A DNA stretch of 64,000 nucleotides, taken from positions 4,359,855 to 4,423,854 of the forward strand of contig NZ_CP074436.1 in the NCBI RefSeq assembly GCF_016858305.2, in the 5' to 3' direction. Below the pieces are notes generated by a model. That model ran no database searches and was not told the DNA's origin. It saw nothing but the letters and a program-made list of their open reading frames with translations. This stretch comes from Polaribacter sp. Q13 (GTDB lineage Bacteria; Bacteroidota; Bacteroidia; Flavobacteriales; Flavobacteriaceae). The position numbers were made by a program, and so were the translations under genes. Positions 1,836 through 37,317 of the stretch are shown here, piece by piece (the first letter of the stretch is position 1; each line of letters opens with the position of its first letter).

Positions 1836-4734
<2,899 letters not shown>

Positions 4735-4769
4735 AAAAAAAGCGTTGTGATTTCTCACAACGCTTTTTA
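4735..4769 (-). terminator. Rho-independent terminator of trmD-rplS
   Basis: Stem AAAAAAGCGTTGTGA / TCACAACGCTTTTT with loop TTTC, 20 bp after the rplS stop codon. The stem is perfect and has U-runs on both strands. Confidence 0.88.
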
Positions 4770-4789
4770 ATACTTTTATGTAAAAGAAA

Positions 4790-5140
4790 TTATCTTCTTT
4801 TTTCAGTAATTCTAGCTTTCTTACCAGTAAGACCTCTAAAGTAGAAAATACGAGCTCTACGTACTTTACCTCTTTTGTTTACTTCAATTTTTTGAATAGA
4901 AGGTAAGTTTACAGGGAAAATTCTTTCTACACCTACAGTACCAGACATTTTTCTGATTGTAAATGTTTCTGAAGCTGCAACTCCTTTTCTTTGAATAACT
5001 ACACCTCTAAAAAACTGAGTACGTACTTTATCTCCCTCTTTAATTTCGTAATAAACAGTGATTGTATCTCCTGCTGCAAATTCTGCAAATTCTTTTCTAG
5101 TTACAAATTCGTCTTGTACAAACTTTACTAAAGCTTCCAT
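4790..5140 (-). CDS. rplS: 50S ribosomal protein L19
   Basis: Large-subunit protein at the 30S-50S interface, 116 aa. The start is placed at ATG 5140-5138 (MEALVKFVQDEF), because L19 proteins of this phylum begin with this helix. The same frame stays open for a further 28 codons to an upstream ATG at 5224, but those residues have no counterpart in L19. Conserved RKMSGTVGVERIFPVNLPSI and RRARIFYFRGLTGKKARI are present. It lies downstream of trmD in one operon, the usual trmD-rplS order, and is closed by the hairpin at 4735. Confidence 0.96.
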   Translation of the reverse strand: MEALVKFVQDEFVTRKEFAEFAAGDTITVYYEIKEGDKVRTQFFRGVVIQRKGVAASETFTIRKMSGTVGVERIFPVNLPSIQKIEVNKRGKVRRARIFYFRGLTGKKARITEKRR

Positions 5141-24003: not shown

Positions 24004-25773
24004 ATGAGTGTACAAACTTGGACATGGATATTAGTAGGGATTTCTTTTACCCTATATTTTGGAATCGCAATTTGGGCTCGAGCGGGCTCAACAAAAGAAT
24101 TTTATGTAGCTGGCGGAGGTGTTTCTCCTTTAGCAAATGGTATGGCAACTGCTGCCGATTGGATGAGTGCCGCCTCATTTATTAGTATGGCAGGTATTAT
24201 TTCCTTTGCAGGGTATGATGGCTCTGTTTATTTAATGGGATGGACCGGTGGATATGTGCTTTTAGCGCTATTGTTAGCTCCCTATTTACGTAAGTTTGGT
24301 AAGTTTACAGTACCAGATTTTATTGGAGATCGGTATTACTCAAACACAGCAAGAACAGTGGCCGTAATATGTGCTTTAATTGTGTCTTTTACCTATGTAG
24401 CAGGACAAATGAGAGGAGTAGGAATTGTTTTTTCTCAGTTCTTACAAGTAGATATTATTTATGGCGTTTTAATTGGTATGACAGTAGTTTTGGTATTTGC
24501 TCTTTTAGGAGGGATGAAAGGAATTACTTATACACAGGTAGCTCAATATTGTGTATTGATTTTTGCTTTTATGGTACCAGCGTTTTTTATCTCTGTACAA
24601 ATGACGGGGAATTTAATTCCGCAAATAGGAATGGGAAGTACTGTAGAAGATGGTACTTATCTTTTAGATAAATTAGATGCTTTACACACACAATTAGGGT
24701 TTAAAGAATATACTTCTGGTTCTAAATCTACTTGGGATGTTTTTGCAATCACATTAGCATTAATGGCCGGTACAGCAGGATTACCGCATGTTATTGTTCG
24801 TTTCTTTACGGTACCTAAAGTAAAAGATGCACGTAAATCTGCAGGATATGCGTTGCTTTTAATCGCTATTTTATATACTACAGCACCTGCAATTGCAGTT
24901 TTTTCTAGAACCAATTTAATAGAAACAGTAAGTGAAAAAGAATATTCAGAAATTCCGGTATGGTTTAAAAACTGGGAAAACACAGGGTTAATTTCTTGGA
25001 CAGATAAAAATGGTGATGGTAAAATTCAATATGTTGCAGGGAATGCCTTAGATGGTAAAAAACCTATATATACTGAAGATAGAGGTACATTTGGAGAAAG
25101 ATTGATTTCAAATTCTAATATGTCTGCTAAAAACGAATTGTATGTAGATAGAGATATTATGGTATTGGCAAATCCGGAAATAGCACAGTTACCAAATTGG
25201 GTAATAGGCTTAGTTGCAGCGGGTGGATTAGCAGCAGCTTTATCTACAGCAGCAGGTTTATTGCTGGTAATTTCAACATCCGTTTCTCATGATTTAATTA
25301 AAAAACAATTAAAACCAGATATTTCAGATAAAGCAGAGTTAATGGCAGCAAGAATAGCAATTTTTGTAGCAATTTTAATTGCAGGGTACTTTGGTATTAA
25401 TCCGCCAGGGTTTGTCGCCGCCGTGGTTGCATTAGCATTTGGTTTGGCAGCCGCTTCTTTCTTTCCAGCGATTGTTTTGGGGATTTTTGATAAAAAAATG
25501 AATAAAGAAGGAGCGATATCAGGAATGATTGTAGGTATTGTATTGATGCTTTTTTACATGATGAAATTTAAATTAGACATGTTTGGCGGCGGTACACAAG
25601 AAGATTGGTGGTTTGGTACTTCTCCTGAAGGTTTTGGAACTATTGCAATGTTTGTTAATGTGGTTATTTCTGTAGTCGTTTCTAGAGTTACGGCAGCGCC
25701 ACCACAAAATGTGCAAGAAATGGTAGAAAGTATAAGAATACCATCTGGAGCAGGAGAAGCTTCTGATCATTAA
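24004..25773 (+). CDS. Sodium:solute symporter, VC_2705/ActP-like (probable acetate uptake)
   Basis: 589-aa SSS-family permease with about 13 membrane helices. Conserved segments are FYVAGGGVSPLANGMATAAD, WMSAASFISMAGIISFAGYD and the sodium-site region around ALMAGTAGLPHVIVRFFTVP. A long soluble loop (about residues 300-390, rich in Asp/Lys) is typical of the VC_2705 subfamily. Relatives carry acetate and similar monocarboxylates. The operon porin-DUF4212-symporter ends at the hairpin at 25836. Acetate as substrate is inferred from family and from the acs gene downstream. Confidence 0.92.
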   Translation: MSVQTWTWILVGISFTLYFGIAIWARAGSTKEFYVAGGGVSPLANGMATAADWMSAASFISMAGIISFAGYDGSVYLMGWTGGYVLLALLLAPYLRKFGKFTVPDFIGDRYYSNTARTVAVICALIVSFTYVAGQMRGVGIVFSQFLQVDIIYGVLIGMTVVLVFALLGGMKGITYTQVAQYCVLIFAFMVPAFFISVQMTGNLIPQIGMGSTVEDGTYLLDKLDALHTQLGFKEYTSGSKSTWDVFAITLALMAGTAGLPHVIVRFFTVPKVKDARKSAGYALLLIAILYTTAPAIAVFSRTNLIETVSEKEYSEIPVWFKNWENTGLISWTDKNGDGKIQYVAGNALDGKKPIYTEDRGTFGERLISNSNMSAKNELYVDRDIMVLANPEIAQLPNWVIGLVAAGGLAAALSTAAGLLLVISTSVSHDLIKKQLKPDISDKAELMAARIAIFVAILIAGYFGINPPGFVAAVVALAFGLAAASFFPAIVLGIFDKKMNKEGAISGMIVGIVLMLFYMMKFKLDMFGGGTQEDWWFGTSPEGFGTIAMFVNVVISVVVSRVTAAPPQNVQEMVESIRIPSGAGEASDH

Positions 25774-25835
25774 ACAGAACCATTTTTATGTTTTCTTTTA
25801 AAATATAAAATATAGTTTTAAATAAGTTAGTTAGA

Positions 25836-25869
25836 AATCAGCATTACAACTTGTAGTGCTGATTTTTTT
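25836..25869 (+). terminator. Terminator of the porin-symporter operon
   Basis: AATCAGCATTACAA / TTGTAGTGCTGATT with a T7 run. It separates the transport operon from the signalling/activation operon that starts at 25897. Confidence 0.88.
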
Positions 25870-25896
25870 ATTATTTTTAAGGTTCAAAGTAAATCA

Positions 25897-26091
25897 ATGA
25901 AAAAAAGACATGAGCAGAAGTTAATTGTATTATCAATTGCATTGTTTTTAATGTTTAATATACCCTTTGTCCTTGTTTTTAATTTTGAAGGAGCAATTTG
26001 GGGGATTCCTACATTTTATTTTTCAATATTTTCTATTTGGTTATTGTCTATTGTAATTTCATTTATCGTCTTAAATCGTCATTATGAATAG
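25897..26091 (+). CDS. Small two-helix membrane protein ahead of the sensor kinase
   Basis: 64 aa: basic N-terminus KKRHEQK, then two hydrophobic helices (residues 9-28 and 36-58). It overlaps the sensor kinase by 8 nt (ATGAATAG), the strict coupling expected for a stoichiometric partner. By analogy with the DUF4212 subunit of the true symporter, it may be the small subunit of the kinase's symporter domain (inference). No family recognised. Confidence 0.8.
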   Translation: MKKRHEQKLIVLSIALFLMFNIPFVLVFNFEGAIWGIPTFYFSIFSIWLLSIVISFIVLNRHYE

Positions 26092-28774
26092 TTTTACTTT
26101 AATAGTCATTATAATTATTTATTTAGCGGTGTTGTTCTACATTGCTTTTCTTGCTGAAAAAAAACGACAAAGTAAGTGGGTAAATAATCCTTATGTCTAT
26201 ACTTTGTCTTTAGCTGTATTTTGTTCTGCATGGACCTATTATGGTAGTGTAGGAATTGCAGCAAATTCCGGAATTAACTTTTTACCAATTTATTTAGGGC
26301 CTGTTATTGCGGCGCCTTTATGGATTATTGTGCTTCGAAAAATTATTAGAATTTCTAAACAGCATAAAATTTCTTCCATTGCAGATTTTATTTCTTTGCG
26401 CTACGGAAACAATCGTTTTTTAGGAGCCTTGGTCACAATTATTTGCCTTTTTGGTACTTTGCCTTACATTTCTTTACAATTAAAAGCAGTTTCTGAAACA
26501 TTTGAAATTATGTCTGATGATACGAGTTATATTTCTACATCAATTATTGACGATTCTACTTTTTACGTTGCTTTATTATTAGCTGTTTTTGCTGCTTTTT
26601 TTGGAACCCAAAATACAGATGCATCAGAAAAACATAAGGGAATTGTTGCTACAGTTGCTTTTGAGTCTGTTTTAAAATTGGTTTTCTTCACCATTATTGG
26701 TGGGTATATTACATTTTACTTGTTTGATGGTACAACAGATATTTATGATAAAATTTCAAATACAGAAAATTTTAAAGAGCTAACTACACTAAGTGGTATA
26801 GAAGATGGTTTTAATTGGTTTTTTATGATTGCTTTATCTTTTATGTCTATATTTTTATTACCACGTCAGTTTCAAGTTATGGTTTTAGAAAACAATAGAG
26901 AAAAACATTTAAAGAAAGCAATTTGGTTGTTTCCATTGTACTTATTGCTTTTTAATATTTTTGTTATTTTTATTGCTTGGGCAGGTAAATTAACCTTTGG
27001 TTCTACTCAAAATGCAGAGTATTATTCTTTATTACTTCCGTTAGAACACGGAAATTCACTTTTAGCAACGCTTGTTTTTTTAGGAGGTTTTTCTGCGGTT
27101 ATTTCTATGGTGGTAGTTTCTACCTTGGCATTATCAACCATGGTTAGTAATAACTTAATTATTCCGTATGGGTTTTTAGATAAATTTATTAAAAATCAAC
27201 CAGAACGAAATTCAAAATATATTAAAAGCATTCGTCGTATTTCTATTTTTACCATTATTATTTCGGCGTATTTCTTCTATGTTTCGTTTTCAAAAGAGCT
27301 TTCTTTGTATTCTATTGGATTAATCTCTTTTGTTATTATAGCGCAATTAGCACCTTCCTTTTTTATTGGTTTATTCTGGAATCGTGGTTCTTCAAAAGCG
27401 GCTATTATCGGAATGATTATTGGTTTTCTTATTGCTATTTACACTTTAGTTTTACCTTTTACATTACAAGCCTATACCGGAACAGATTATTTTACGCAAC
27501 ACGGATTATTTGGTATTGCTGCATTAAAACCAAATGCTTTGTTAGGCATCGATTTTTTAAGTCCGCCTGCTCATGCATTTTTCTGGAGTATTTCGTTTAA
27601 TTTAATGAGTTATTTAGTGTTTTCATTAGTTTCTAAAGGAAATTATAGAGAGCGTAATTATGCAGAAATGTTTGTAGACAGTAAGAGTTTTACCTCACTT
27701 CAAGAAAATGCATTTGTTTGGAAAGGAGAGGCTTATGTTTCAGATGTTAAAAATGTTTTAGTTCGTTTTTTAGGTGAAGAACGCGCTACACGTGCTCTTA
27801 AAATATTTTTCACCAAGCATAAATTGCCTTTAGATACCCAATTGGGAGATGCTAGATTAATTAATTTTTCAGAAAAATTATTAACAGGTAGTATTGGTTC
27901 TGCATCCGCAAAAATATTGATTGCAAGTGTGGTAAAAGAAGAGCAAATTAGTTTGGTTGAGGTGTTAAAAATTTTAGAAGAATCTAAAGAGAACATTGTA
28001 AATAATAAGGTTTTGTTAGAAAAATCGAATGAATTGTCTCAATTGTCATCAAAATTAAAAGATGCAAATAAAGAATTAATAAGTAAAGACAAGCAAAAAG
28101 ATGAATTTTTAGATACGGTTGCTCATGAATTGAAAACACCAATTACAGGGATTCGTGCAGCTACTGAGCTATTGATGGATGAAGATGATGATATGCCTCA
28201 AGAAATGAAAGCCCAGTTTTTAAAGAATATTCTGCAAGATTCTGAGCGTTTAGGGCGTTTAATTCATAATATTTTAGATTTTGAAAAACTAGAAACAGGA
28301 AGATTAAATTTAGACTTAGAATATTTAGACATTCAAAAGACGATTGCGAAGGCAATTGGCAGTATTTCTCAAATTGCTGCGAAAAAAGGAGTGAAAATCG
28401 TTGTGAATAATGTGCATTCTTTTAAAATAAATTATGATGAAGATAGAATTCTACAAGTATTAACCAATTTATTGTCCAATGCCATTAAGTTTTGCCAACC
28501 ACAAACCGGGAAAATTTACATAGATTATAAATTAGGAAATGCCTTGGTAGAAATCTCTGTAACCGATAATGGTAAAGGGATTCCGGAAGAAGATCATGCA
28601 TTTGTTTTTGATAAGTTTTATCAATCTAAACATCAAAACACCATTAAACCACAGGGTAGTGGATTAGGATTGGCAATAACCAAACAAATAGTAGAAAAAC
28701 ACCAAGGAAAAATTTGGGCTAAAAAAGGTATAAAAAATGGTGCAACATTTGTTTTTACCATCCCTTTTAAGTAA
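26084..28774 (+). CDS. Symporter-histidine kinase fusion (CrbS/CbrA-like sensor)
   Basis: 896 aa in one chain. Residues 1 to about 515 form a sodium:solute-symporter domain of roughly 13 helices. A STAC-type linker follows at about 540-640 (VWKGEAYVSDVKNVLVRFLG, then FTKHKLPLDTQLGDARL). A coiled coil leads to the HisKA domain with phosphoacceptor His681 (TVAHELKTP) and HATPase_c with N box LTNLLSNAIKF, G1 DNGKGIP and G2 GSGLGLAITKQIVEKHQG. CrbS and CbrA of gamma-proteobacteria share this architecture; CrbS controls acs. A lone receiver follows 16 bp downstream. Sensing of acetate or its transport is inference. Confidence 0.93.
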   Translation: MNSFTLIVIIIIYLAVLFYIAFLAEKKRQSKWVNNPYVYTLSLAVFCSAWTYYGSVGIAANSGINFLPIYLGPVIAAPLWIIVLRKIIRISKQHKISSIADFISLRYGNNRFLGALVTIICLFGTLPYISLQLKAVSETFEIMSDDTSYISTSIIDDSTFYVALLLAVFAAFFGTQNTDASEKHKGIVATVAFESVLKLVFFTIIGGYITFYLFDGTTDIYDKISNTENFKELTTLSGIEDGFNWFFMIALSFMSIFLLPRQFQVMVLENNREKHLKKAIWLFPLYLLLFNIFVIFIAWAGKLTFGSTQNAEYYSLLLPLEHGNSLLATLVFLGGFSAVISMVVVSTLALSTMVSNNLIIPYGFLDKFIKNQPERNSKYIKSIRRISIFTIIISAYFFYVSFSKELSLYSIGLISFVIIAQLAPSFFIGLFWNRGSSKAAIIGMIIGFLIAIYTLVLPFTLQAYTGTDYFTQHGLFGIAALKPNALLGIDFLSPPAHAFFWSISFNLMSYLVFSLVSKGNYRERNYAEMFVDSKSFTSLQENAFVWKGEAYVSDVKNVLVRFLGEERATRALKIFFTKHKLPLDTQLGDARLINFSEKLLTGSIGSASAKILIASVVKEEQISLVEVLKILEESKENIVNNKVLLEKSNELSQLSSKLKDANKELISKDKQKDEFLDTVAHELKTPITGIRAATELLMDEDDDMPQEMKAQFLKNILQDSERLGRLIHNILDFEKLETGRLNLDLEYLDIQKTIAKAIGSISQIAAKKGVKIVVNNVHSFKINYDEDRILQVLTNLLSNAIKFCQPQTGKIYIDYKLGNALVEISVTDNGKGIPEEDHAFVFDKFYQSKHQNTIKPQGSGLGLAITKQIVEKHQGKIWAKKGIKNGATFVFTIPFK

Positions 28775-28790
28775 ATTGTAGCCTTAAAGT

Positions 28791-29156
28791 ATGAAGAATA
28801 GAATTTTAATTGTTGATGATGAGCCCAATATTGTAATGTCGTTAGAATACGCTTTTAAAAAACAAGATTTTGAAGTGTTTATTGCAAGAGATGGGAGTGA
28901 AGCTTTAGAGATATTAAAACATCAAGTACCTAACATCGTTTTGTTAGATATTATGATGCCGAATGTAGATGGTTATCAGACCTTACAAGAGATCAAAAAA
29001 AATAAAAGTTTAAAAGATACCAAAGTGGTCTTTTTAACTGCAAAAAATAAAGCTTCAGACGTTGAAAAAGGTTTAAAACTTGGAGCAGATAAGTATTTAA
29101 CAAAACCTTTTTCAGTAAAAAAACTAGTTTCAGAAATATTGGAACTTTTAGCTTAA
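28791..29156 (+). CDS. Single-domain response regulator
   Basis: 121-aa CheY-like receiver with no output domain. Acidic pair Asp9-Asp10, phosphoacceptor Asp53 (VLLDIMMP), Thr83 and Lys105 (TKPF) are all present. Directly downstream of the symporter-kinase, hence its probable partner. In Vibrio the cognate CrbR is a full LuxR-type regulator; here the output must pass through another protein, such as the NtrB/NtrC-like pair farther along (inference). Confidence 0.92.
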   Translation: MKNRILIVDDEPNIVMSLEYAFKKQDFEVFIARDGSEALEILKHQVPNIVLLDIMMPNVDGYQTLQEIKKNKSLKDTKVVFLTAKNKASDVEKGLKLGADKYLTKPFSVKKLVSEILELLA

Positions 29157-29228
29157 AAGATAGTCTTTATCGCTATTAAATATTGATTTTGTGTGCAAAC
29201 AAACAATGTTTAATTAAAATTTAAAGAC

Positions 29229-29453
29229 ATGAAATATCAATTGAATGCACTTGCATCAGATGTTTTTATCAGCATTTATGCAATCAGTACCTTGTATTTT
29301 AGGTTTAAGTTTGAAAATAGTGGAAATATAGATCCTATACTATCTGTAGTTTTAGGTCTTTCTTTTGTAACTATTATTTGGGCACTTATAAAACTTAAAA
29401 TATTAAACCCTAATTGGTTTGGCTTATTTAATTCTAAAAAAGCGAGATCATGA
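29229..29453 (+). CDS. Small membrane protein upstream of the PrpE-like gene
   Basis: 74 aa with two hydrophobic stretches (about residues 8-24 and 38-58) and a basic tail ending NSKKARS. Its stop codon overlaps the next start by 4 nt (ATGA), so it is translationally coupled to the acyl-CoA synthetase. No family was recognised. Tethering the soluble synthetase near the membrane transporter is one possible role, without direct evidence. Confidence 0.7.
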   Translation: MKYQLNALASDVFISIYAISTLYFRFKFENSGNIDPILSVVLGLSFVTIIWALIKLKILNPNWFGLFNSKKARS

Positions 29454-31345
29454 AATACCAAGAATTTTATCAAAAAAGTATTCTTCAGCCAGAAAAATTC
29501 TGGAGCAAGCATGCAAATAAATTAGATTGGTTTAAAACACCAACAACTATTTTATCAAAAGATGCCTATAACTACCATCAATGGTTTGCAGATGGCGAAC
29601 TTAATTTAAGTTATTTGTGCATAGACAAACATATTAAAGATGGTTTTGGAGATCAAAATGCCATTATTTATGACTCCCCAGTAACCAATACAAAACAACA
29701 TATTACCTTTCATCAATTACATCACGAAGTTTCTAAACTCGCTGGTGGATTGCAAGATTTAGGTTTAAAAAAAGGGGATACATGTATTATTTATATGCCT
29801 ATGATTCCGCAAGCTTTATTCGCTATGTTGGCTTGTGTTCGGATAGGTGTTATTCATTCTGTGGTATTTGGTGGTTTTGCTCCACATGAGTTGGCCATCA
29901 GAATAGATGATTGTAAACCAAAAGTGATTATTACTGCGTCTAGTGGTGTAGAAATAGAAAAGATAATTCCGTATAAACCTTATGTAGATGAAGCAATAGA
30001 GAAATCTCAAAATAAACCAGAAAAGGTAATTGTTTTCGATAGAGAATTAGGGGTAGAAGTACCAAAGAAAGGCTACGATGTAGACTATATTGATTTGGTT
30101 GAAAAATCTCCTTCTATTGAAGCTGTTTCTTTGGCATCTACAGATCCGTCTTACATTCTATATACTTCGGGAACGACAGGGAAACCAAAAGGAATTATTA
30201 GAGATACTGGTGGTTATGCAACTGCTTTAAAATTTTCTATGAAATATATTTATGGTGTTAAGAAAGGAGATGTATTTTGGGCAGCAAGTGATGTTGGTTG
30301 GGTTGTAGGGCATAGTTATATTGTGTATGCACCTTTATTAAATAGAAATACAACCATTCTTTTTGAAGGAAAACCTATTAGAACTCCAGATGCTTCTACT
30401 TTTTGGCGCGTAATTAGTGAGCATAATGTTAAAGTGATGTTTACTGCTCCAACGGCAATTAGAGCAATTAAAAAAGAAGATCCTAACGGAAGGATGATTA
30501 AAAAATATGATTTATCGAGTTTAAAATATCAATTTTTGGCAGGAGAACGCTGTGATGTAGCGACCTTAACTTGGACTAAAGAGCATTTAAAAGTTCCGGT
30601 GATAGACCATTGGTGGCAAACAGAAAGTGGTTGGCCTATGGTGGCAAATATGGTGGGTGTAGCCTTGCAGGAAGTAAAACCCGGATCTGCAAGTTTTCCG
30701 GTTTGTGGTTATGATATTCGAATTTTAAATGAAGAGGGAGAAGAAGTTGCTTCTAGTGTAGAAGGTTTTGTTGCCGTGAAATTGCCTTTACCTCCCGGAA
30801 CTTTAATGAATCTTTGGGGCAATCCAGAACGTTTTAAAGCGGGTTATTTAAATCGTTTTCCAGGATATTATTTCTCTGGTGATGGAGGATACAAAGATGA
30901 AGATGGTTATGTTTTTATAACAGGGAGAGTAGATGATATTATAAACGTTGCCGGACACCGATTGTCTACCGCAGAAATGGAAGAAGTTGTAGCTTCTCAT
31001 AAAGCAGTAGCAGAATGTGCTGTTTTTGGAGTGCATTGTGATTTAAAAGGTCAGAAACCTTTAGGTTTAGTGGTTTTGAAATCGGGTGACGATTATAATG
31101 AAGAAAAAATTCAGAAAGAAATTTTAAAAGATGTGCGTCATGAAATTGGTGCAGTGGCTTCTTTTAGAGATGTATTAGTTGTTAATCGCTTGCCAAAAAC
31201 TAGAAGTGGAAAAATTCTTCGTAAATTGTTACGAAATATTGCAGATGATCTGCAGTATAATGTACCCTCAACAATTGATGATATCGCAATTATAAACGAA
31301 ATAAAAAGCGTTTACCAGAGGCATCATATAGGTATTCATAAATAA
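29450..31345 (+). CDS. prpE: Propionyl-CoA synthetase-like acyl-CoA ligase (PrpE type)
   Basis: AMP-forming acyl-CoA synthetase, 631 aa, closest in pattern to PrpE. It opens YQEFYQKSILQPEKFW, then shows the P-loop YTSGTTGKPKGIIRD followed by TGGYATAL (PrpE has R-D-x-G-G-Y), DHWWQTESGWP, GRVDDIINVAGHRL and the catalytic lysine motif KTRSGKILRK. It would activate propionate, or another short carboxylate, to the CoA thioester. With the carboxylase genes 39970-43721 it could feed propionate via methylmalonyl-CoA (inference; the mutase is not in this window). It has a 4-nt overlap with the gene before it. Confidence 0.85.
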   Translation: MKYQEFYQKSILQPEKFWSKHANKLDWFKTPTTILSKDAYNYHQWFADGELNLSYLCIDKHIKDGFGDQNAIIYDSPVTNTKQHITFHQLHHEVSKLAGGLQDLGLKKGDTCIIYMPMIPQALFAMLACVRIGVIHSVVFGGFAPHELAIRIDDCKPKVIITASSGVEIEKIIPYKPYVDEAIEKSQNKPEKVIVFDRELGVEVPKKGYDVDYIDLVEKSPSIEAVSLASTDPSYILYTSGTTGKPKGIIRDTGGYATALKFSMKYIYGVKKGDVFWAASDVGWVVGHSYIVYAPLLNRNTTILFEGKPIRTPDASTFWRVISEHNVKVMFTAPTAIRAIKKEDPNGRMIKKYDLSSLKYQFLAGERCDVATLTWTKEHLKVPVIDHWWQTESGWPMVANMVGVALQEVKPGSASFPVCGYDIRILNEEGEEVASSVEGFVAVKLPLPPGTLMNLWGNPERFKAGYLNRFPGYYFSGDGGYKDEDGYVFITGRVDDIINVAGHRLSTAEMEEVVASHKAVAECAVFGVHCDLKGQKPLGLVVLKSGDDYNEEKIQKEILKDVRHEIGAVASFRDVLVVNRLPKTRSGKILRKLLRNIADDLQYNVPSTIDDIAIINEIKSVYQRHHIGIHK

Positions 31346-31420: not shown

Positions 31421-33328
31421 ATGAGTAATTACCACATAAAACACTTAGAAGAATACTTTAAAGTCTATAGAAAATCTATTAGAGAGCCAGAAGTATTTTG
31501 GGAAGAAATAGCGGAAGAGCATTTTTTATGGAGAAAAAAATGGGATAATGTTTTAGATTGGGATTTTTCTAAACCAGAAATTAAATGGTTTGAAGGGGCA
31601 AAACTAAATATTACAGAAAACTGTATTGATAGACATTTGGCTACGAGAGCAGACAAAACGGCTATTTTATTTGAACCGAATGATCCAAATGAGCCCGCAG
31701 AACATATTAGCTACAAACAATTGTCTGAAAGAGTCAATCAGTTTGCCAATGTTTTAAAAGAACACGGAGTTCAAAAAGGAGATAGAGTTTGTATTTATGT
31801 TCCTATGATTCCAGAATTGGCAATTTCTTTATTGGCTTGTGCTAGAATTGGTGCTATTCATTCTGTGGTTTTTGCAGGTTTTTCATCTACCGCATTATCA
31901 ACAAGAATTAATGATTCTGACTGTAAAATGGTAATTACTGCAGATGGTTCTTATCGAGGGAAAAAATCTATCGATTTAAAAGGAATTGTAGATGAAGCTT
32001 TAGAAAAATGTCCGGGAGTTAATAATGTTTTGGTGGCAAAAAGAACCAATGCAGCTATCAACATGAAAGAAGGAAGAGATAAATGGCTACAACCTTTGTT
32101 AGATGAAGCTTCTAAAGAGTGCAGTGCAGAAATTATGGACGCAGAAGATCCGTTATTTATTTTGTACACTTCTGGTTCTACAGGAAAACCAAAAGGAATG
32201 GTACATACAACTGCAGGATATATGGTGTATACAGCATATACTTTTAAAAATGCATTTCAATATAGAGAAAACGATGTGTATTGGTGTACTGCAGATATCG
32301 GTTGGATTACTGGGCATTCTTATATTGTGTATGGCCCGTTAGCAAACGGAGCAACCACGCTATTGTTTGAAGGTGTACCAAGTTATCCAGATTTTGGACG
32401 TTTTTGGGATATTGTAGATAAACATAAAGTGAGTCAATTTTATACAGCTCCAACCGCCATAAGAGCATTGGCAAAACAAGGAACAGCATTGATAGAAAAA
32501 TATGATTTATCATCTTTAAAAGTGCTAGGTTCTGTAGGAGAACCGATTAATGAGGAAGCATGGCACTGGTATAATGATAATGTAGGGAAAGGAAAAAGTC
32601 CGATTATAGATTCTTGGTGGCAAACAGAAACAGGAGGAATTATGATTACGCCAATCCCTTACGTAACACCAACAAGACCAACGTATGCAACATTACCTTT
32701 TATAGGAATTCAACCAGCTATAATGGATGAAGACGGAGGCGAATTAAAAGGAAATCAAGTAGAAGGAAGGTTGTGTATAAAATATCCTTGGCCAAGTATT
32801 GCTAGAACTATCTGGGGAGATCACCAACGTTATAAGGAAACCTATTTTTCGGCCTATAAAGACATGTATTTTACGGGTGATGGAGCACTTAGAGATGAGG
32901 TTGGATATTACAGAATTACAGGTAGAGTAGATGATGTAATTATTGTATCTGGACACAATTTAGGAACTGCACCAATTGAAGATGCTATTAATGAACATCC
33001 TGCAATTGCAGAATCGGCTATTGTTGGTTTCCCTCATGATATTAAAGGAAGTGCATTGTATGGATATATAACCTTAAAAGATGCCGGTGAATATAGAGAT
33101 CATAATAATTTACAAAAGGAAATTAACCAATTGATAACAGATAGAATTGGGCCAATTGCAAAATTAGATAAAATTCAATTTACAGATGGATTGCCAAAAA
33201 CACGTTCAGGAAAAATTATGAGACGTATTTTACGTAAAATAGCTTGTAATGAAATGGATAATTTAGGAGATACAAGTACACTTTTAAACCCAGAAGTAGT
33301 AAAAGGTATTATTGAGAATCGATTGTAA
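31421..33328 (+). CDS. acs: Acetyl-CoA synthetase
   Basis: AMP-forming acetate-CoA ligase, 635 aa: high-affinity conversion of acetate to acetyl-CoA. Motifs are the nucleotide loop YTSGSTGKPKGMVHTTAGY, the acetate pocket segment DSWWQTETGGIMITPIP, GRVDDVIIVSGHNLGTAPIE and KTRSGKIMRRILRKIA, whose first lysine is the family's catalytic and acetylation-controlled residue. It is downstream of the PrpE-like gene and 15 bp before a histidine kinase gene. Its placement among transporters and sensors marks the locus as acetate-scavenging. Confidence 0.97.
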   Translation: MSNYHIKHLEEYFKVYRKSIREPEVFWEEIAEEHFLWRKKWDNVLDWDFSKPEIKWFEGAKLNITENCIDRHLATRADKTAILFEPNDPNEPAEHISYKQLSERVNQFANVLKEHGVQKGDRVCIYVPMIPELAISLLACARIGAIHSVVFAGFSSTALSTRINDSDCKMVITADGSYRGKKSIDLKGIVDEALEKCPGVNNVLVAKRTNAAINMKEGRDKWLQPLLDEASKECSAEIMDAEDPLFILYTSGSTGKPKGMVHTTAGYMVYTAYTFKNAFQYRENDVYWCTADIGWITGHSYIVYGPLANGATTLLFEGVPSYPDFGRFWDIVDKHKVSQFYTAPTAIRALAKQGTALIEKYDLSSLKVLGSVGEPINEEAWHWYNDNVGKGKSPIIDSWWQTETGGIMITPIPYVTPTRPTYATLPFIGIQPAIMDEDGGELKGNQVEGRLCIKYPWPSIARTIWGDHQRYKETYFSAYKDMYFTGDGALRDEVGYYRITGRVDDVIIVSGHNLGTAPIEDAINEHPAIAESAIVGFPHDIKGSALYGYITLKDAGEYRDHNNLQKEINQLITDRIGPIAKLDKIQFTDGLPKTRSGKIMRRILRKIACNEMDNLGDTSTLLNPEVVKGIIENRL

Positions 33329-33343
33329 AATAAATAATTTTTG

Positions 33344-34453
33344 ATGGGAAGTCACATTACTATTGAAGATAAATTAAAAGAACGTATTAAAGAGCTAACT
33401 TGTTTGTATAAAGTTAGCTCTTTAATTCGTAATAATAATAATAATAATTTTAGTGATATAAACACACTTTTTAAGGAAATTGCAGCAAGTGTAAAGGAGG
33501 CCATAAGATTTCCGGAAGAAGCATTTGTAGAAATTAAAATTGAAGATTTTGTTTTTGTAGAAGGAAGAAAAATACAAGATGCTATTTTTATTATTTCAGC
33601 CGTTAAGGCTTTTGGTAAAATTAAAGGATCTTTAACGGTAGGGTATTCAAAACAAAAGTTTTCTGAAAATTCTTTTTTAGAAGAAGAAAAATTATTGTTG
33701 CATAAAATAGCTACTGAAATTGGGGACTTTTTAGAACGAAAGCAGATAATTGAAAAAGAGGAAATTGCTAAAAGACAAATTGAAAGAGCAGGAAGGCTTA
33801 CTATTTTAGGAGAAATTACTGCAGGAATTGCACATGAATTAAATACGCCTTTAGCAAATATTTTGGGCTTTTCAGAATTGTTAAAAGAACAATATAAAGA
33901 CGATAAAGTAGCAAGTGAAGATTTAAAAAAAATAATTAATAGTGCTATTTATTCTAGAGAGGTGGTAAAGAAATTAATGTTTTTTTCTTGCGAAATGCCT
34001 CAGCAAATGACTTCTGTAAATATCAATTTAATTATTAACGAGGCAATTAGTTTGTTGAATCCTAATTTTAAGAAAAAAAACATTCATTGTACTATTACTT
34101 TTTCTAGTGATGAAATTTACTTAAAAGTTGATAAAATTCAGTTAACCCAAGTAATTTTTAATTTGGTTATCAATGCTATTTATTTTTCACCAGTTAAAGG
34201 GAAAATCAACATTGATGTTTTAGAGAATTCAAAAAAGATTCAAATCAGAATTTCTGATGAAGGAGAAGGAATTCAATCCGTTAATTCAGAAAATATCTTT
34301 AATCCTTTTTTTACGACCAAACCTATTGGAGATGGTTCTGGTTTAGGTTTAAGTGTTGTACATGGAATTATTAAAAGTCATAAAGGGACCATAATTCATC
34401 AACCAAACTCGCCAAAAGGTACTATTTTTGTTGTTAGTTTTCCTAAAAGTTAA
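33344..34453 (+). CDS. NtrB-like sensor histidine kinase
   Basis: 369 aa from ATG 33344 (the TTG just before it is unlikely). No membrane segments, so it is cytosolic. The N-terminal 130 residues look like a GAF/PAS-type input with FPEEAFVEIKIEDFVFVEG. A helix leads into HisKA with His164 (GEITAGIAHELNTPLANI), then HATPase_c with INLIINEAISLL, DEGEGIQ and GDGSGLGLSVVHGIIKSHKG. It is located 3 bp before the sigma-54 activator, its obvious partner. Since it is soluble, it may read an internal signal or be controlled by the single-domain regulator upstream. Confidence 0.9.
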   Translation: MGSHITIEDKLKERIKELTCLYKVSSLIRNNNNNNFSDINTLFKEIAASVKEAIRFPEEAFVEIKIEDFVFVEGRKIQDAIFIISAVKAFGKIKGSLTVGYSKQKFSENSFLEEEKLLLHKIATEIGDFLERKQIIEKEEIAKRQIERAGRLTILGEITAGIAHELNTPLANILGFSELLKEQYKDDKVASEDLKKIINSAIYSREVVKKLMFFSCEMPQQMTSVNINLIINEAISLLNPNFKKKNIHCTITFSSDEIYLKVDKIQLTQVIFNLVINAIYFSPVKGKINIDVLENSKKIQIRISDEGEGIQSVNSENIFNPFFTTKPIGDGSGLGLSVVHGIIKSHKGTIIHQPNSPKGTIFVVSFPKS

Positions 34454-34456
34454 AAG

Positions 34457-35782
34457 ATGCTAAACAAAGAAAATATACTAATTGTAGATGATGATGTTCT
34501 TATTTTAGAACTCATACAAAGACATTTACAGTCCTTAAATTACCATACATACAAAGCAATTTCTGTAAAAGAAGCTTTAGAGATTTTAAAAGATACCTCT
34601 ATAGATTTATTAATTACAGACTTGCAAATGCCCGGAGTAGACGGATTGGAGTTAATTAAATATGCGTCTGCACATTATCCTAAAATACCAAAATTGGTGG
34701 TTACAGGTTTCCCTTCTATACAAGGTGCTTTAGAGGTTATGAAGTCTGGTGCTGCAGATTATATTACAAAGCCTTTTACAAAAGAAGAACTAAAAACGGC
34801 AATTTTAAAATCTTTAGAAATGAAACCTAAAGGTGATAAAATTACCAAAGTAAAAGAAGATAAAATTCATAAGCCTTATGGAGAATTAATAGGTGCATCT
34901 CCTGCAATGAAAAAAGTTACAGACGTTATAGAACGTTTAAAAAATAACAAAGCAACGGTTTTTATTCATGGAGAAAGCGGAACAGGAAAAGAGCTGGTAG
35001 CGCGTTCTATTCATTATATGGGTAAATATTCCTCAGCGCCCTTTGTTGTGGTAAACTGTGGTGCCATTCCAGAAAATTTGTTAGAATCAGAATTGTTTGG
35101 TTATGTTAAAGGAGCTTTTACTGGAGCAGAAAAAGATAGAAAAGGTTTTTTTCAGGCAGCAAATAATGGAACTATTTTTTTAGATGAAATTGGCAATGCA
35201 TCTTTAGCAACCCAATTAAGATTATTACGTGTTTTACAAGAAAAGGAAGTGGTACGAGTTGGTTCTCAAAAAGCAGAAAAAATTGATGTTAGAGTAATTG
35301 CAGCTACCAATATTGAACTAAAAGATTTAATCGAAAAAAAACGGTTTAGAGAAGATTTATATTACAGATTAACAGTTGTAGAAATTAATGTACCAACGTT
35401 ATTAGAAAGAAGTTCAGACATTCCTTTATTGGTAGATAAATTTTTATTTAAATACGGAATAGAATACAAAGACCGATATTTAAAAATGACTCCAGAAGCT
35501 TTACAAATTTTGAAAAATTATTATTGGCCTGGTAATATAAGGGAGTTAGAAAATGTAATACAAAGAGCTATTATTATGTCGGATAGAATTGTGGATGTAG
35601 AGCATTTGCCAGGACATATAAAGTATCAAATTGATTTTACTAAAACGGATAAATTGTTGTCTTTAAAAGAGTTTGAGAAAACCTATATTTTAAAAGTATT
35701 ACAAGCTACCAATAACAACAAAACAAAAGCAGCAGAAATTCTTCAAATTGATAGAAAAACACTTCGAGAGAAATTAAAATAA
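34457..35782 (+). CDS. NtrC-type sigma-54-dependent response regulator
   Basis: 441 aa. The receiver has phosphoacceptor Asp55 (LLITDLQMPG); the AAA+ domain has Walker A GESGTGKE (residues 172-179), the sigma-54-contact loop GAFTGA (219-224) and Walker B GTIFLDEIG; the Fis-type HTH at the C-terminus is NNNKTKAAEILQIDRKTLRE. All parts for transcription activation at RpoN promoters are intact. The gene ends 139 bp before a consensus sigma-54 promoter, preceded by a palindrome, so local regulation is likely. It closes the operon that starts at 25897 or 29229. Confidence 0.95.
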   Translation: MLNKENILIVDDDVLILELIQRHLQSLNYHTYKAISVKEALEILKDTSIDLLITDLQMPGVDGLELIKYASAHYPKIPKLVVTGFPSIQGALEVMKSGAADYITKPFTKEELKTAILKSLEMKPKGDKITKVKEDKIHKPYGELIGASPAMKKVTDVIERLKNNKATVFIHGESGTGKELVARSIHYMGKYSSAPFVVVNCGAIPENLLESELFGYVKGAFTGAEKDRKGFFQAANNGTIFLDEIGNASLATQLRLLRVLQEKEVVRVGSQKAEKIDVRVIAATNIELKDLIEKKRFREDLYYRLTVVEINVPTLLERSSDIPLLVDKFLFKYGIEYKDRYLKMTPEALQILKNYYWPGNIRELENVIQRAIIMSDRIVDVEHLPGHIKYQIDFTKTDKLLSLKEFEKTYILKVLQATNNNKTKAAEILQIDRKTLREKLK

Positions 35783-35808
35783 GTCATTTTTAAAAACGAG
35801 TAAAATAG

Positions 35809-35845
35809 TAGCAGCTGAGGAAATATTCCTCAGCTGTTATTTTTT
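35809..35845 (+). terminator. Terminator after the NtrC-like gene
   Basis: AGCAGCTGAGGAA / TTCCTCAGCTGTT stem around TA, followed by a T-rich run. It isolates the sigma-54 promoter downstream from read-through. Confidence 0.88.
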
Positions 35846-35847
35846 GT

Positions 35848-35881
35848 TATATAAGTAGATTTTGTGTAAGTTACTTATATA
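35848..35881. promoter_or_regulatory. Palindromic candidate enhancer site (UAS) for the NtrC-like activator
   Basis: Perfect 10-bp inverted repeat TATATAAGTA-N14-TACTTATATA, ending 39 bp upstream of the -24 box at 35921 and thus centred roughly 80 bp before the expected transcription start. This is the distance at which bacterial enhancer-binding proteins usually bind. The AT-rich sequence makes chance palindromes more common, so binding is inference. Confidence 0.55.
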
Positions 35882-35920
35882 TAGGTGGTTGTTGTTTATT
35901 TTGTGTCTTTTTGAAAAATA

Positions 35921-35936
35921 TGGCACATGGCTTGCA
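35921..35936 (+). promoter_or_regulatory. Sigma-54 (RpoN) promoter, full consensus
   Basis: TGGCAC-ATGGC-TTGCA matches the -24/-12 consensus TGGCAC-N5-TTGCW at every position, including the GG/GC spacing. The first downstream ATG is 30 bp later (35966). No other sigma-54 site was found in the locus. Confidence 0.88.
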
Positions 35937-35965
35937 TATAGGTAATCGTAATTAAAAATATAATT

Positions 35966-36157
35966 ATGAAAATGAATTGTAATAGTTTATGTACTACTTG
36001 CCTGCACACAAGTGATTGCAGTTTAACATCAAATAAAAGTTTTATTTGGTCATGTAGCGAGTATGAAAAAAGGAGTTTTATAAAAACCAATTCAACACCT
36101 ATTTTAACGCCAAACTTTAGTTTCACAGAAAGTGAAAGAGAGTTTGAAATTATTTAA
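35966..36157 (+). CDS. Small cysteine-rich protein, first gene behind the sigma-54 promoter
   Basis: 63 aa, no signal peptide. The cysteines form C5-x3-C9-x2-C12-x5-C18-x11-C30 with His14, followed by E-Y-E. This pattern, ending W-x-C-x-E-Y, resembles small metal-binding (zinc or iron) peptides known only as hypothetical proteins; the metal is not known. The C-terminal half (TPILTPNFSFTESEREFEII) is polar and probably disordered. It starts 30 bp after the sigma-54 promoter, giving a short leader. Confidence 0.75.
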   Translation: MKMNCNSLCTTCLHTSDCSLTSNKSFIWSCSEYEKRSFIKTNSTPILTPNFSFTESEREFEII

Positions 36158-36159
36158 TT

Positions 36160-36360
36160 ATGGCGACTTTAACAAAAGAATTAAAACAAAAAAAACAGTC
36201 TAAACAAGGCATGTTAGAAAACATATTGAAGTAGTTTGAAAACGCTACGGAATTAGTAAACTTAAATCCGAAGACAAAAAAGATATTATGTGTTACTAAT
36301 AATGAACTAATTATTCATTTTCCTGTAAGTATGGATAATGAATACGTAGAAGTTTTTTAA
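36160..36360 (+). pseudogene. Small ORF interrupted by an in-frame TAG
   Basis: Starts at ATG 36160, 2 bp after the Cys-rich gene. Twenty-four codons (MATLTKELKQKKQSKQGMLE, then NILK) are followed by TAG at 36232-36234. The same frame then stays open for 41 more codons (FENATELVNLNPKTKKILCV ... MDNEYVEVF) to TAA at 36358. A single base change (for example from CAG, AAG, GAG or TTG) would restore a 66-residue protein. Options: a recent nonsense mutation, a sequencing error, stop read-through, or two short peptides. No family recognised. Confidence 0.6.
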
Positions 36361-36485
36361 AGTATTAAATGTTGCTAAAATAAACAAGTAGACATAAGTT
36401 CTGCGGACTTTATTTTGATAATAGAACGATTAAAAAGAACCTAGGTTTAACGTAGTGTTTTTCCTTAGAATAAAATGTATATGAG
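36361..36485. other. Spacer with a possible gene remnant
   Basis: 125 bp between the interrupted ORF and the Rnk-like gene. It contains AAAATAAA ... TTTATTTT, a weak inverted pair, and a 22-codon open stretch without start codon (36384-36449, reading SRHKFCGLYFDNRTIKKNLG) that looks protein-like and may be what is left of a decayed gene. Confidence 0.35.
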
Positions 36486-36896
36486 ATGAAGTATGGTCAA
36501 TTAATTATTGAAGAAAAAGAGTTTTCAATAATAGAAAAACTCTTGAATTTAAATAAAATTATAGAAACCAAAACGGTAAAGAGTCATATTTTAAAACTGC
36601 AAGAAGAGTTAAGAAATGTAACTAAAGTGGTTGCGGAAAAAGATTTCCCTAAAGATGTTGTAAGGCTTAATTCTATTGTAACCGTGAGTTCTTTAGATGG
36701 TTTATGGGAAAAAACTTTTGAGTTGGTTGTGCCTTCTAATGGAAGTGTTTTAGAAAATAAAATTTCATTATTGCTACCAATGGGTACGGCAGTTTTGGGC
36801 TATGCTAAAGGTGATTTGATTTTATGGGATTTTCCGGGAGGAGCAAAAGAATTAAAGGTGTTAGAAGTAATGCAACAAGAAATTGTAACAAAATAA
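36486..36896 (+). CDS. GreA/GreB-fold protein, Rnk-like
   Basis: 136 aa. A short N-terminal helical segment is followed by the GreA/B C-terminal (FKBP-like) domain: VRLNSIVTVSSLDGLWEKTF, SLLLPMGTAVLGYAKGDLIL and GGAKELKVLEV. The long catalytic coiled coil of GreA is missing, which fits the Rnk (regulator of nucleoside diphosphate kinase) group that binds RNA polymerase without cleavage activity. It is in the sigma-54-driven cluster, so it may adjust transcription during a carbon-source switch (inference). Confidence 0.85.
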   Translation: MKYGQLIIEEKEFSIIEKLLNLNKIIETKTVKSHILKLQEELRNVTKVVAEKDFPKDVVRLNSIVTVSSLDGLWEKTFELVVPSNGSVLENKISLLLPMGTAVLGYAKGDLILWDFPGGAKELKVLEVMQQEIVTK

Positions 36897-36905
36897 AAAA
36901 TTATT

Positions 36906-37250
36906 ATGCAGGTAAATAATGAGCAATCTGAAAGTCAAATAATTCAAAATAGAAGTATAAATGAAGTAAAAAGATGGATGTTAGATCTGAGTGAAATCTC
37001 AAGTGAATGCAATGATCTTGAATTAGAACGTCTTAAAGAAATGAATTTAAGGAATGAGTTTTCTACTATTATTGAAAATAATAAGATGATCCGAAACACA
37101 CTTTTAGAATATAAAAATGTCTTAAATAAGCCAACAGAGTGTATTGATTTAGAATGTGATTTGTTTTTTTACAATGAGCATAAAAAAAATAGAAATTTAT
37201 ATATAGAACACCTTAATAATTATAAAAGCTTAAAAAATAATATGGTCTAA
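36906..37250 (+). CDS. Hypothetical coiled-coil protein
   Basis: 114 aa, highly charged and helical (NEVKRWMLDLSEISSECNDL, ERLKEMNLRNEFSTII, HKKNRNLYIEHLNNYKSLKN), probably a coiled coil. No membrane segment, no recognised family. It is 9 bp downstream of the Rnk-like gene and last in the cluster before the hairpin at 37279. Confidence 0.7.
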   Translation: MQVNNEQSESQIIQNRSINEVKRWMLDLSEISSECNDLELERLKEMNLRNEFSTIIENNKMIRNTLLEYKNVLNKPTECIDLECDLFFYNEHKKNRNLYIEHLNNYKSLKNNMV

Positions 37251-37278
37251 TTTGCTAATTGTTAAGTTAGTTTTTTTT

Positions 37279-37317
37279 GTAGGGGCTCCAAATTAGATTT
37301 GGAGCTACCTTTTTTTT
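37279..37317 (+). terminator. Terminator of the sigma-54-driven cluster
   Basis: GTAGGGGCTCCAAAT / ATTTGGAGCTAC stem with a three-base loop and a T8 run. It falls between this cluster and the convergent exonuclease gene. Confidence 0.85.

Follow-up and report, generated by a model that had tools for sequence, protein, structure and literature searches.

A probable reduced form of a conserved sigma-54 two-component cassette, marked by a Cys box, in Polaribacter sp. Q13

Sigma-54 control of catabolic glutamate dehydrogenase (GDH) is already known for B. subtilis and for Bacillota. The accessible part of one report describes rocG of B. subtilis as the gene of a catabolic GDH that is transcribed from a SigL-dependent promoter with RocR as activator (PMC4348106), and a 2025 survey names sigma-54-dependent GDH for Bacillota, with Bacteroidota not being named in its accessible text (PMC12316311). 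RocG has also been described as a 'trigger enzyme' with GltC as its target (accessible part of PMC6794564), which is a precedent for a GDH in gene control and serves here only as an analogy. The cassette studied here was found in a window of 64,000 nucleotides from Polaribacter sp. Q13, "the window" being this whole stretch, and is like the RocR/SigL/rocG system in its sigma-54-type control of a catabolic GDH (accessible part of PMC4348106). It belongs, however, to another phylum than the rocG system. We know of no kinase partner, Cys box, Rnk-like gene or three-helix gene at rocG of B. subtilis.

Single components of the cassette have described counterparts as well. The window activator has its domain order and the GAFTGA motif in common with the NtrC family (AtoC, ZraR, NtrC). 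The Rnk-like protein of the window is like E. coli Rnk in having a GreA/B C-terminal domain and a short N-terminal part, but differs from it in falling below the PRK05753 cut-off and in being encoded in a sigma-54 operon. The zinc ribbon protein FlgZ (HP0958) of Helicobacter pylori is a Cys-motif protein affecting sigma-54 levels (accessible part of PMC3372290); unlike the Cys box of the window it carries two CXXC motifs, and the two are likened by description only. Neither the Cys box nor the cassette was found described in the literature searched, outside of which much of the subscription literature lies.

We consider it likely that what the window contains is a conserved cassette in reduced form, a sigma-54 two-component system that serves NAD(H)-linked enzymes, is marked by the Cys box and has lost its enzyme in the lineage of the window. 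The observations behind this reading are the gene order, the conservation of the promoter, the decay of gdh and the distribution of the Cys box. The cassette would consist of a soluble NtrB-like kinase, an NtrC-like activator, a -24/-12 promoter and a four-cysteine Cys-box gene in first position. The usual next gene would encode an NAD(H)-linked enzyme, which would be GDH ancestrally in this lineage and GDH or a NuoE/NuoF-type oxidoreductase in other phyla. In the window species and its close relatives gdh has decayed, with the promoter, the Cys peptide, the Rnk-like protein and the three-helix protein being retained.

Regulatory pair, promoter and neighbourhood

The features of the window are, in order of position:

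24004-31345: genes ahead of acs2 (symporter-like, large transporter-kinase-like, response regulator, 74-aa, acetate/propionate-CoA-ligase-like)
31421..33328, plus strand: acs2, acetate--CoA ligase (AcsA; NCBIfam TIGR02188, 959 bits, over cut-off), a non-constant neighbour
33344..34453, plus strand: NtrB-like histidine kinase (HisKA and HATPase_c)
34457..35782, plus strand: NtrC-like sigma-54 activator (receiver PF00072; AAA+ PF00158, 4.7e-70; Fis-type HTH PF02954)
35807..35841, plus strand: terminator after the NtrC-like gene, with a similar stem-loop in close relatives (by eye)
35848..35881, no strand: inverted repeat TATATAAGTA-N14-TACTTATATA with 10-bp arms and a spacer of 14, a possible activator site present only in the window species
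35921-35936, plus strand: sigma-54 promoter TGGCAC-ATGGC-TTGCA (TGGCACATGGCTTGCA), 45 bp upstream of the ATG of the Cys peptide
35966..36157, plus strand: Cys-box peptide of 63 aa, C-x2-C-x5-C-x11-C-S-E-Y (alignment, profile match)
36160..36465, plus strand: gdh remnant, made up of 66 codons from the start of the gene, interrupted by an in-frame stop, and 28 (perhaps 38) codons from its end
36486..36896, plus strand: Rnk-like GreA/GreB-fold protein of 136 aa (PF01272, 2.7e-14; PDB 2pn0 and 3bmb)
36906..37250, plus strand: three-helix protein of 114 aa with a conserved EC-x4-C motif (alignment of 30; predicted model with pLDDT 86.9)
37284..37306, plus strand: operon-closing terminator (terminator search)

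The intact NtrB/NtrC-like pair which the original prediction had placed ahead of the promoter is confirmed by its Pfam domains and by the GAFTGA motif that can be read in the NtrC-like activator. Against the NtrC (NR-I) equivalog the NtrC-like protein scored 396.5 bits, under the cut-off of 558.6, and it stayed under the cut-off of every NCBIfam model among the 25 listed of 116. By sequence it is an activator of the NtrC type and not NtrC itself. As the NtrB-like kinase of the window exhibits no transmembrane stretch (by eye), it would sense a cytosolic cue, possibly of amino-acid, carbon or reductant supply; it would then phosphorylate the NtrC-like protein, which in its phosphorylated form would open the sigma-54 promoter. 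The prediction presupposed a sigma-54 gene, and rpoN is indeed present (175 bits) in the genome of 4.42 Mb, which consists of one contig and contains five strong sigma-54 activators among 12 matches to PF00158.

The full-consensus RpoN site described at 35921 is present. The exact pattern TGGCAC-N5-TTGCW occurs at five sites genome-wide and its reversed control pattern at none. Relaxing the pattern to TGGCAY yielded nine genome sites, again with none for the reversed control. Two of the five exact sites are intergenic and ahead of a gene (the promoter at 35921 and a site at 3409107), two are intragenic and one is intergenic without a gene downstream. The second site ahead of a gene (3409107-3409122, L036) is located about 140 bp ahead of lipoprotein-like and outer-membrane-like genes (by eye). 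A TGGCAT-N5-TTGCA sequence at 1314759-1314774 (L071) lies immediately 5′ of a cold-shock-like gene, likewise named by eye.

Relatives of the operon were sought via the 114-aa three-helix protein. Of 117 genomes, 100 had no match and 17 did, counting that of the window. From the latter, 15 regions of 17 kb were taken; a weak match (G084) was left out and an unrelated region (L034) was dropped, which together with the window gives 15 genus loci. As these loci were chosen by the three-helix gene, losses of the whole operon are invisible in the counts. The promoter, in the form GGYAY-N5-TTGC, is kept in all 15 genus loci, 45-49 bp ahead of the ATG of the Cys gene (counted after shifting the starts of L025, L027 and L031 to a conserved Met in the alignment), and GG at -24 with GC at -12, 10 bases apart, is likewise found throughout these 15 loci, and also in 30 of the 49 loci of the wider set. 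Among the eight outer-genus loci (L050-L057) the promoter follows the NtrC-like gene in five (L051, L053, L054, L055 and L057); in L055 and L057 it stands ahead of an extra Gre-like first gene. Conservation of promoter and gene order in relatives, on which the original prediction depended, is thereby borne out, and a sigma-54 operon beside its likely own activator is supported. A small secreted-looking protein of about 120 aa is encoded between the NtrC-like and the Cys gene in L029, L051, L052, L055, L056 and L057, and a second Gre-like gene lies there in L052, L055, L056 and L057.

The perfect 10-bp palindrome described upstream of the promoter is present, but it is not a conserved element, being absent from all 14 genus relatives. 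As inverted repeats with 10-base arms (spacer 0-20) also arose in 2 of 2000 dinucleotide shuffles of a 75-base stretch and in 29 of 2000 shuffles of the entire NtrC-Cys gap, it is only mildly unusual. The inverted repeats upstream of the promoter vary by species, and the palindrome was rejected as a shared activator site. A search for terminators yielded three sites in 4.3 kb, compared to 1.2 expected from shuffles, and the site at 37284-37306 does close the cluster as had been described.

The first interpretation of the locus saw in it an acetate or energy regulon tied to acs, with RNA polymerase control as its own theme. The end of acs2 is indeed only 15 bp ahead of the NtrB-like gene in the window and the Rnk-like gene belongs to the operon. 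However, acs2 directly precedes the NtrB-like gene in just seven of the 15 genus loci, this arrangement is absent from all eight outer-genus loci, and the commoner theme is GDH or an NADH oxidoreductase. The acetate theme is thus not borne out, and we regard this interpretation as improbable. In L029, L050 and L051 the gene immediately 5′ of the NtrB-like gene is antiporter-like (NhaA by eye).

Loss of glutamate dehydrogenase and the genes that remain

The stop-interrupted small ORF reported downstream of the Cys gene is real as an interrupted frame, but is not a small ORF of its own; it is a gdh remnant which matches both ends of the gene. With the GDH of L025 as tblastn query, the window matched residues 1-66 at E 1.6e-29, with a single stop in frame, and residues 405-432 at E 8.7e-6; residues 395-406 gave a weak match (E 1.5), and approximately 330 middle codons are missing. 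An intact GDH was not found at the window operon by this search, which revealed the remnant only. Nine of the 15 genus loci (L024-L028 and L030-L033) contain an intact gdh after the Cys gene, with ORFs of 431-465 aa that match 63-66 residues of the broken stretch in the window. The intact protein of L024 is an ELFV-family GDH (both PF02812 and PF00208 were matched), and every one of the 20 PDB sequences with a match at E <= 1e-100 bears the name glutamate dehydrogenase, with 3k92 and 3k8z being shown as NAD-specific. The latter two we take to be B. subtilis-type entries. The description of the cluster as a mini-operon of unknown proteins is consequently not supported, since its ancestral payload is GDH, intact in these nine loci.

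Other and more decayed gdh remnants than that of the window were found in L020-L022; tblastn of the L025 GDH gave no significant match in L023, and in L029 the Cys and Gre genes are only 68 bases apart. On the NtrC tree of 23 loci the absence of gdh requires three changes, at least two of them on starred branches, so that two or three events are needed on this tree to explain the loss of gdh. All 15 genomes carry one GDH of a common 450-aa type. A second GDH near this type (GDH-B) is present in all six genomes without operon gdh and in two of the nine with it (Fisher p 0.007, kinship uncorrected), from which it appears that the operon GDH was perhaps dispensable and that GDH-B may have made it so. 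The two GDHs of the window genome itself are about 30-35% identical to the operon-type GDH.

The loss of gdh raises the question whether the whole operon is dying, with the leftover genes as passengers. That the remnants in L020-L022 are at differing stages of decay and that L023 retains no significant trace would fit this, as would the three-helix gene being unmatched in 100 of 117 relatives searched and some high dN/dS values of the Cys gene (0.40-0.90 among L020, L021 and L022, on few changes). Nevertheless, the promoter and the three other ORFs are intact in the window and in L020-L023, and dN/dS of the Gre gene is 0.08-0.15 among these five loci. Furthermore, the NtrC tree has at least two independent lineages that lack gdh and retain the other genes, although the loci were themselves chosen by one of those genes. 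Comparing the window with L020-L023, dN/dS amounts to 0.12-0.15 for the Rnk-like, 0.23-0.45 for the three-helix, 0.16-0.33 for the Cys and 0.05-0.09 for the NtrC-like gene, with some of the underlying dS values near saturation. A dying operon is therefore an unlikely explanation, and a reduced cassette that is still maintained is preferred.

Among the retained genes, the assignment of an Rnk-like GreA/B-fold protein is supported by PF01272, with a GreA/B C-terminal domain in a protein of about 136 aa and a match to 3bmb at E 3.6e-9; against NCBIfam PRK05753 it scored 76.7 bits, under the cut-off of 109. No Gre gene was detected between the GDH and three-helix genes in L027 and L028. For the fold of the three-helix protein Foldseek returned nothing usable (best E 0.34). 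A second copy of the module was not found in the window's own genome, where the three-helix protein and the Cys peptide gave one match each. The Rnk-like protein would compete at the secondary channel of RNA polymerase, and by analogy to the E. coli precedent (accessible part of PMC4598747) its gene may adjust transcription in response to the operon's own cue. The outputs that remain after the loss of gdh would then be regulatory ones.

The Cys box and its cassette in other phyla

The Cys-rich 63-aa protein of the original prediction is confirmed, and its Cys motif is conserved. Its family contains a single box, the four Cys of which are invariant in 23 of 23 aligned homologues, and matches the first box of a double-box profile (E 1.9e-9; control against the three-helix alignment 0.86). 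Free peptides from other phyla and from L119-L121 contain double boxes, the eight Cys of which are invariant across all 14 proteins aligned, which come from 13 loci. One box is kept, at the end of the peptide, in Flavobacterium and Salegentibacter loci, and in six loci (L128, L134, L135, L142, L146 and L148) one box is fused to the N-terminus of GDH, where AlphaFold gave no confident structure (residues 1-74, pLDDT under 50). Pfam yielded no match for the window peptide, the L029 peptide and six double-box proteins, NCBIfam none for five double-box proteins, and the PDB no relative of the double-box profile (best E 0.5). This profile matched 1178 proteins at E <= 1e-3, and none of the 120 listed has a Pfam domain. 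Searched in the genomes of 12 loci, the Cys box gave exactly one match in 11 and none in one (L158). The box is uncharacterised and probably metal-binding. In L202 a Cys-box match is located inside a 359-aa ORF (4035-5114), longer than the usual peptide and possibly another fusion.

For the wider distribution, genome contigs were scanned with a profile of the GDH alignment and the best 80 of 587 relatives were taken, a choice which leans towards the query. The succession of kinase, activator, sigma-54 site, Cys box and GDH recurs in other Flavobacteriaceae and in several phyla, so that the system extends beyond the Flavobacteriaceae. HMM counts cover the 71 of these 80 loci that extend 1.5 kb or more upstream. 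In 43 of 47 activator-bearing loci (Bacteroidota 30/33; others, including L119, 13/14) a Cys box was found either in the interval from activator to GDH or as part of the GDH itself, compared to 3 of 24 GDH loci without activator (Bacteroidota 2/8, others 1/16), the HMMs containing proteins from some of the loci counted. An independent Cys pattern was present in 23 of 34 Bacteroidota (L119 included) and 12 of 13 other loci with activator, in 1 of 8 and 1 of 16, respectively, without it, and in 1 of 6173 control ORFs. Records with activator and Cys box are named Spirochaetes, Cloacimonadota, Coatesbacteria and Stahlbacteria/WOR-3, as well as Aminicenantes, Gemmatimonadota, TA06 and Phycisphaerales MAGs. 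Among the best 80 of 587, a sigma-54 site is present in 30 of 49 activator-to-GDH gaps, with 0.3 expected from shuffles and none on the reverse strand; the strict pattern is absent from the other 19. In L119, a record titled Glaciecola amylolytica, the cassette GDH is 67% identical to the flavobacterial query, which could reflect transfer or a mislabelled record.

A search starting from the double box itself matched at least 14 of 294 genomes in the phylum of L138 (Planctomycetota by record), that of L138 included, and at least 5 of 296 in the spirochaete phylum, its centre included; these are lower bounds, only 15 first-look candidates having been scored in many genomes. From the planctomycete phylum 14 regions of 13 other genomes (G838 gave two) were taken. 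An activator is located upstream of the Cys box in ten of them, as a C-terminal fragment in L201 and split over two frames in L193; L190 and L199 have none upstream, and the contig start truncates L197 and L203. The box is followed by NuoE or NuoF domains (Pfam) in L191, L192, L193, L194, L196 and L202 and by GDH in L198. Of the four spirochaete-phylum regions three have the activator upstream. L208 exhibits the order NtrB-NtrC-site-Cys-GDH; in L209 NuoE, NuoF and a NuoG-like ferredoxin protein take the place of GDH. L210 extends no further than the Cys gene; L211 consists of site, Cys gene and GDH (the latter by HMM only) with NtrBC convergent. Ten of the 14 planctomycete-phylum and all four spirochaete-phylum regions carry a sigma-54 pattern near the start of the Cys ORF, either inside its first part or no more than 150 bases ahead of it (no shuffle control). 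Altogether, NuoE/NuoF lies downstream in seven of the 18 regions and GDH in three; neither was identified near the box in eight (L190, L195, L197, L199, L200, L201, L203 and L210), several of which are cut by contig ends. These regions imply that activator, sigma-54 site and Cys box move together, and that the enzyme varies, being NAD(H)-linked where identified. In L191, L194, L196, L202 and L209 the NuoF domains 3′ of the Cys box are joined to a GltD-like flavin domain in one protein.

As for what the box does, it would probably hold a zinc or Fe-S centre and modulate either the kinase/activator branch or the payload enzyme. The fusion to GDH is equally compatible with a signalling role and with that of an enzyme partner. 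For this step alone, a plausible, though not the probable, alternative is that the box partners GDH (and Nuo) as a metal or Fe-S domain which the enzyme needs in order to be assembled or controlled, and that the sigma-54 link is secondary. Such a partner would agree with the six fusions and with the position of the Cys gene directly 5′ of GDH in most of the non-fused activator-bearing GDH loci. It agrees less with the retention of the box without gdh in the window, L020-L023 and L029, with the box having gone undetected at 21 of the 24 GDH loci of the same type that lack the activator, and with its position ahead of NuoE/NuoF rather than GDH in seven loci. A bolder and rather doubtful version of the preferred cassette reading is that the box senses metal or redox state as the adaptor of a sigma-54 two-component system of wide occurrence, which would gauge NAD(H) or reductant and fire GDH or NuoEF in several phyla; Polaribacter-like lineages would have dropped the enzyme, and the sensor would now drive an RNA polymerase-binding factor.

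The reduced cassette of the window ties an unannotated Cys-motif family to a testable function, sigma-54 control of glutamate or reductant catabolism, in groups whose sigma-54 regulons are little known. The lineages without gdh represent a natural separation of the enzyme from its regulators.
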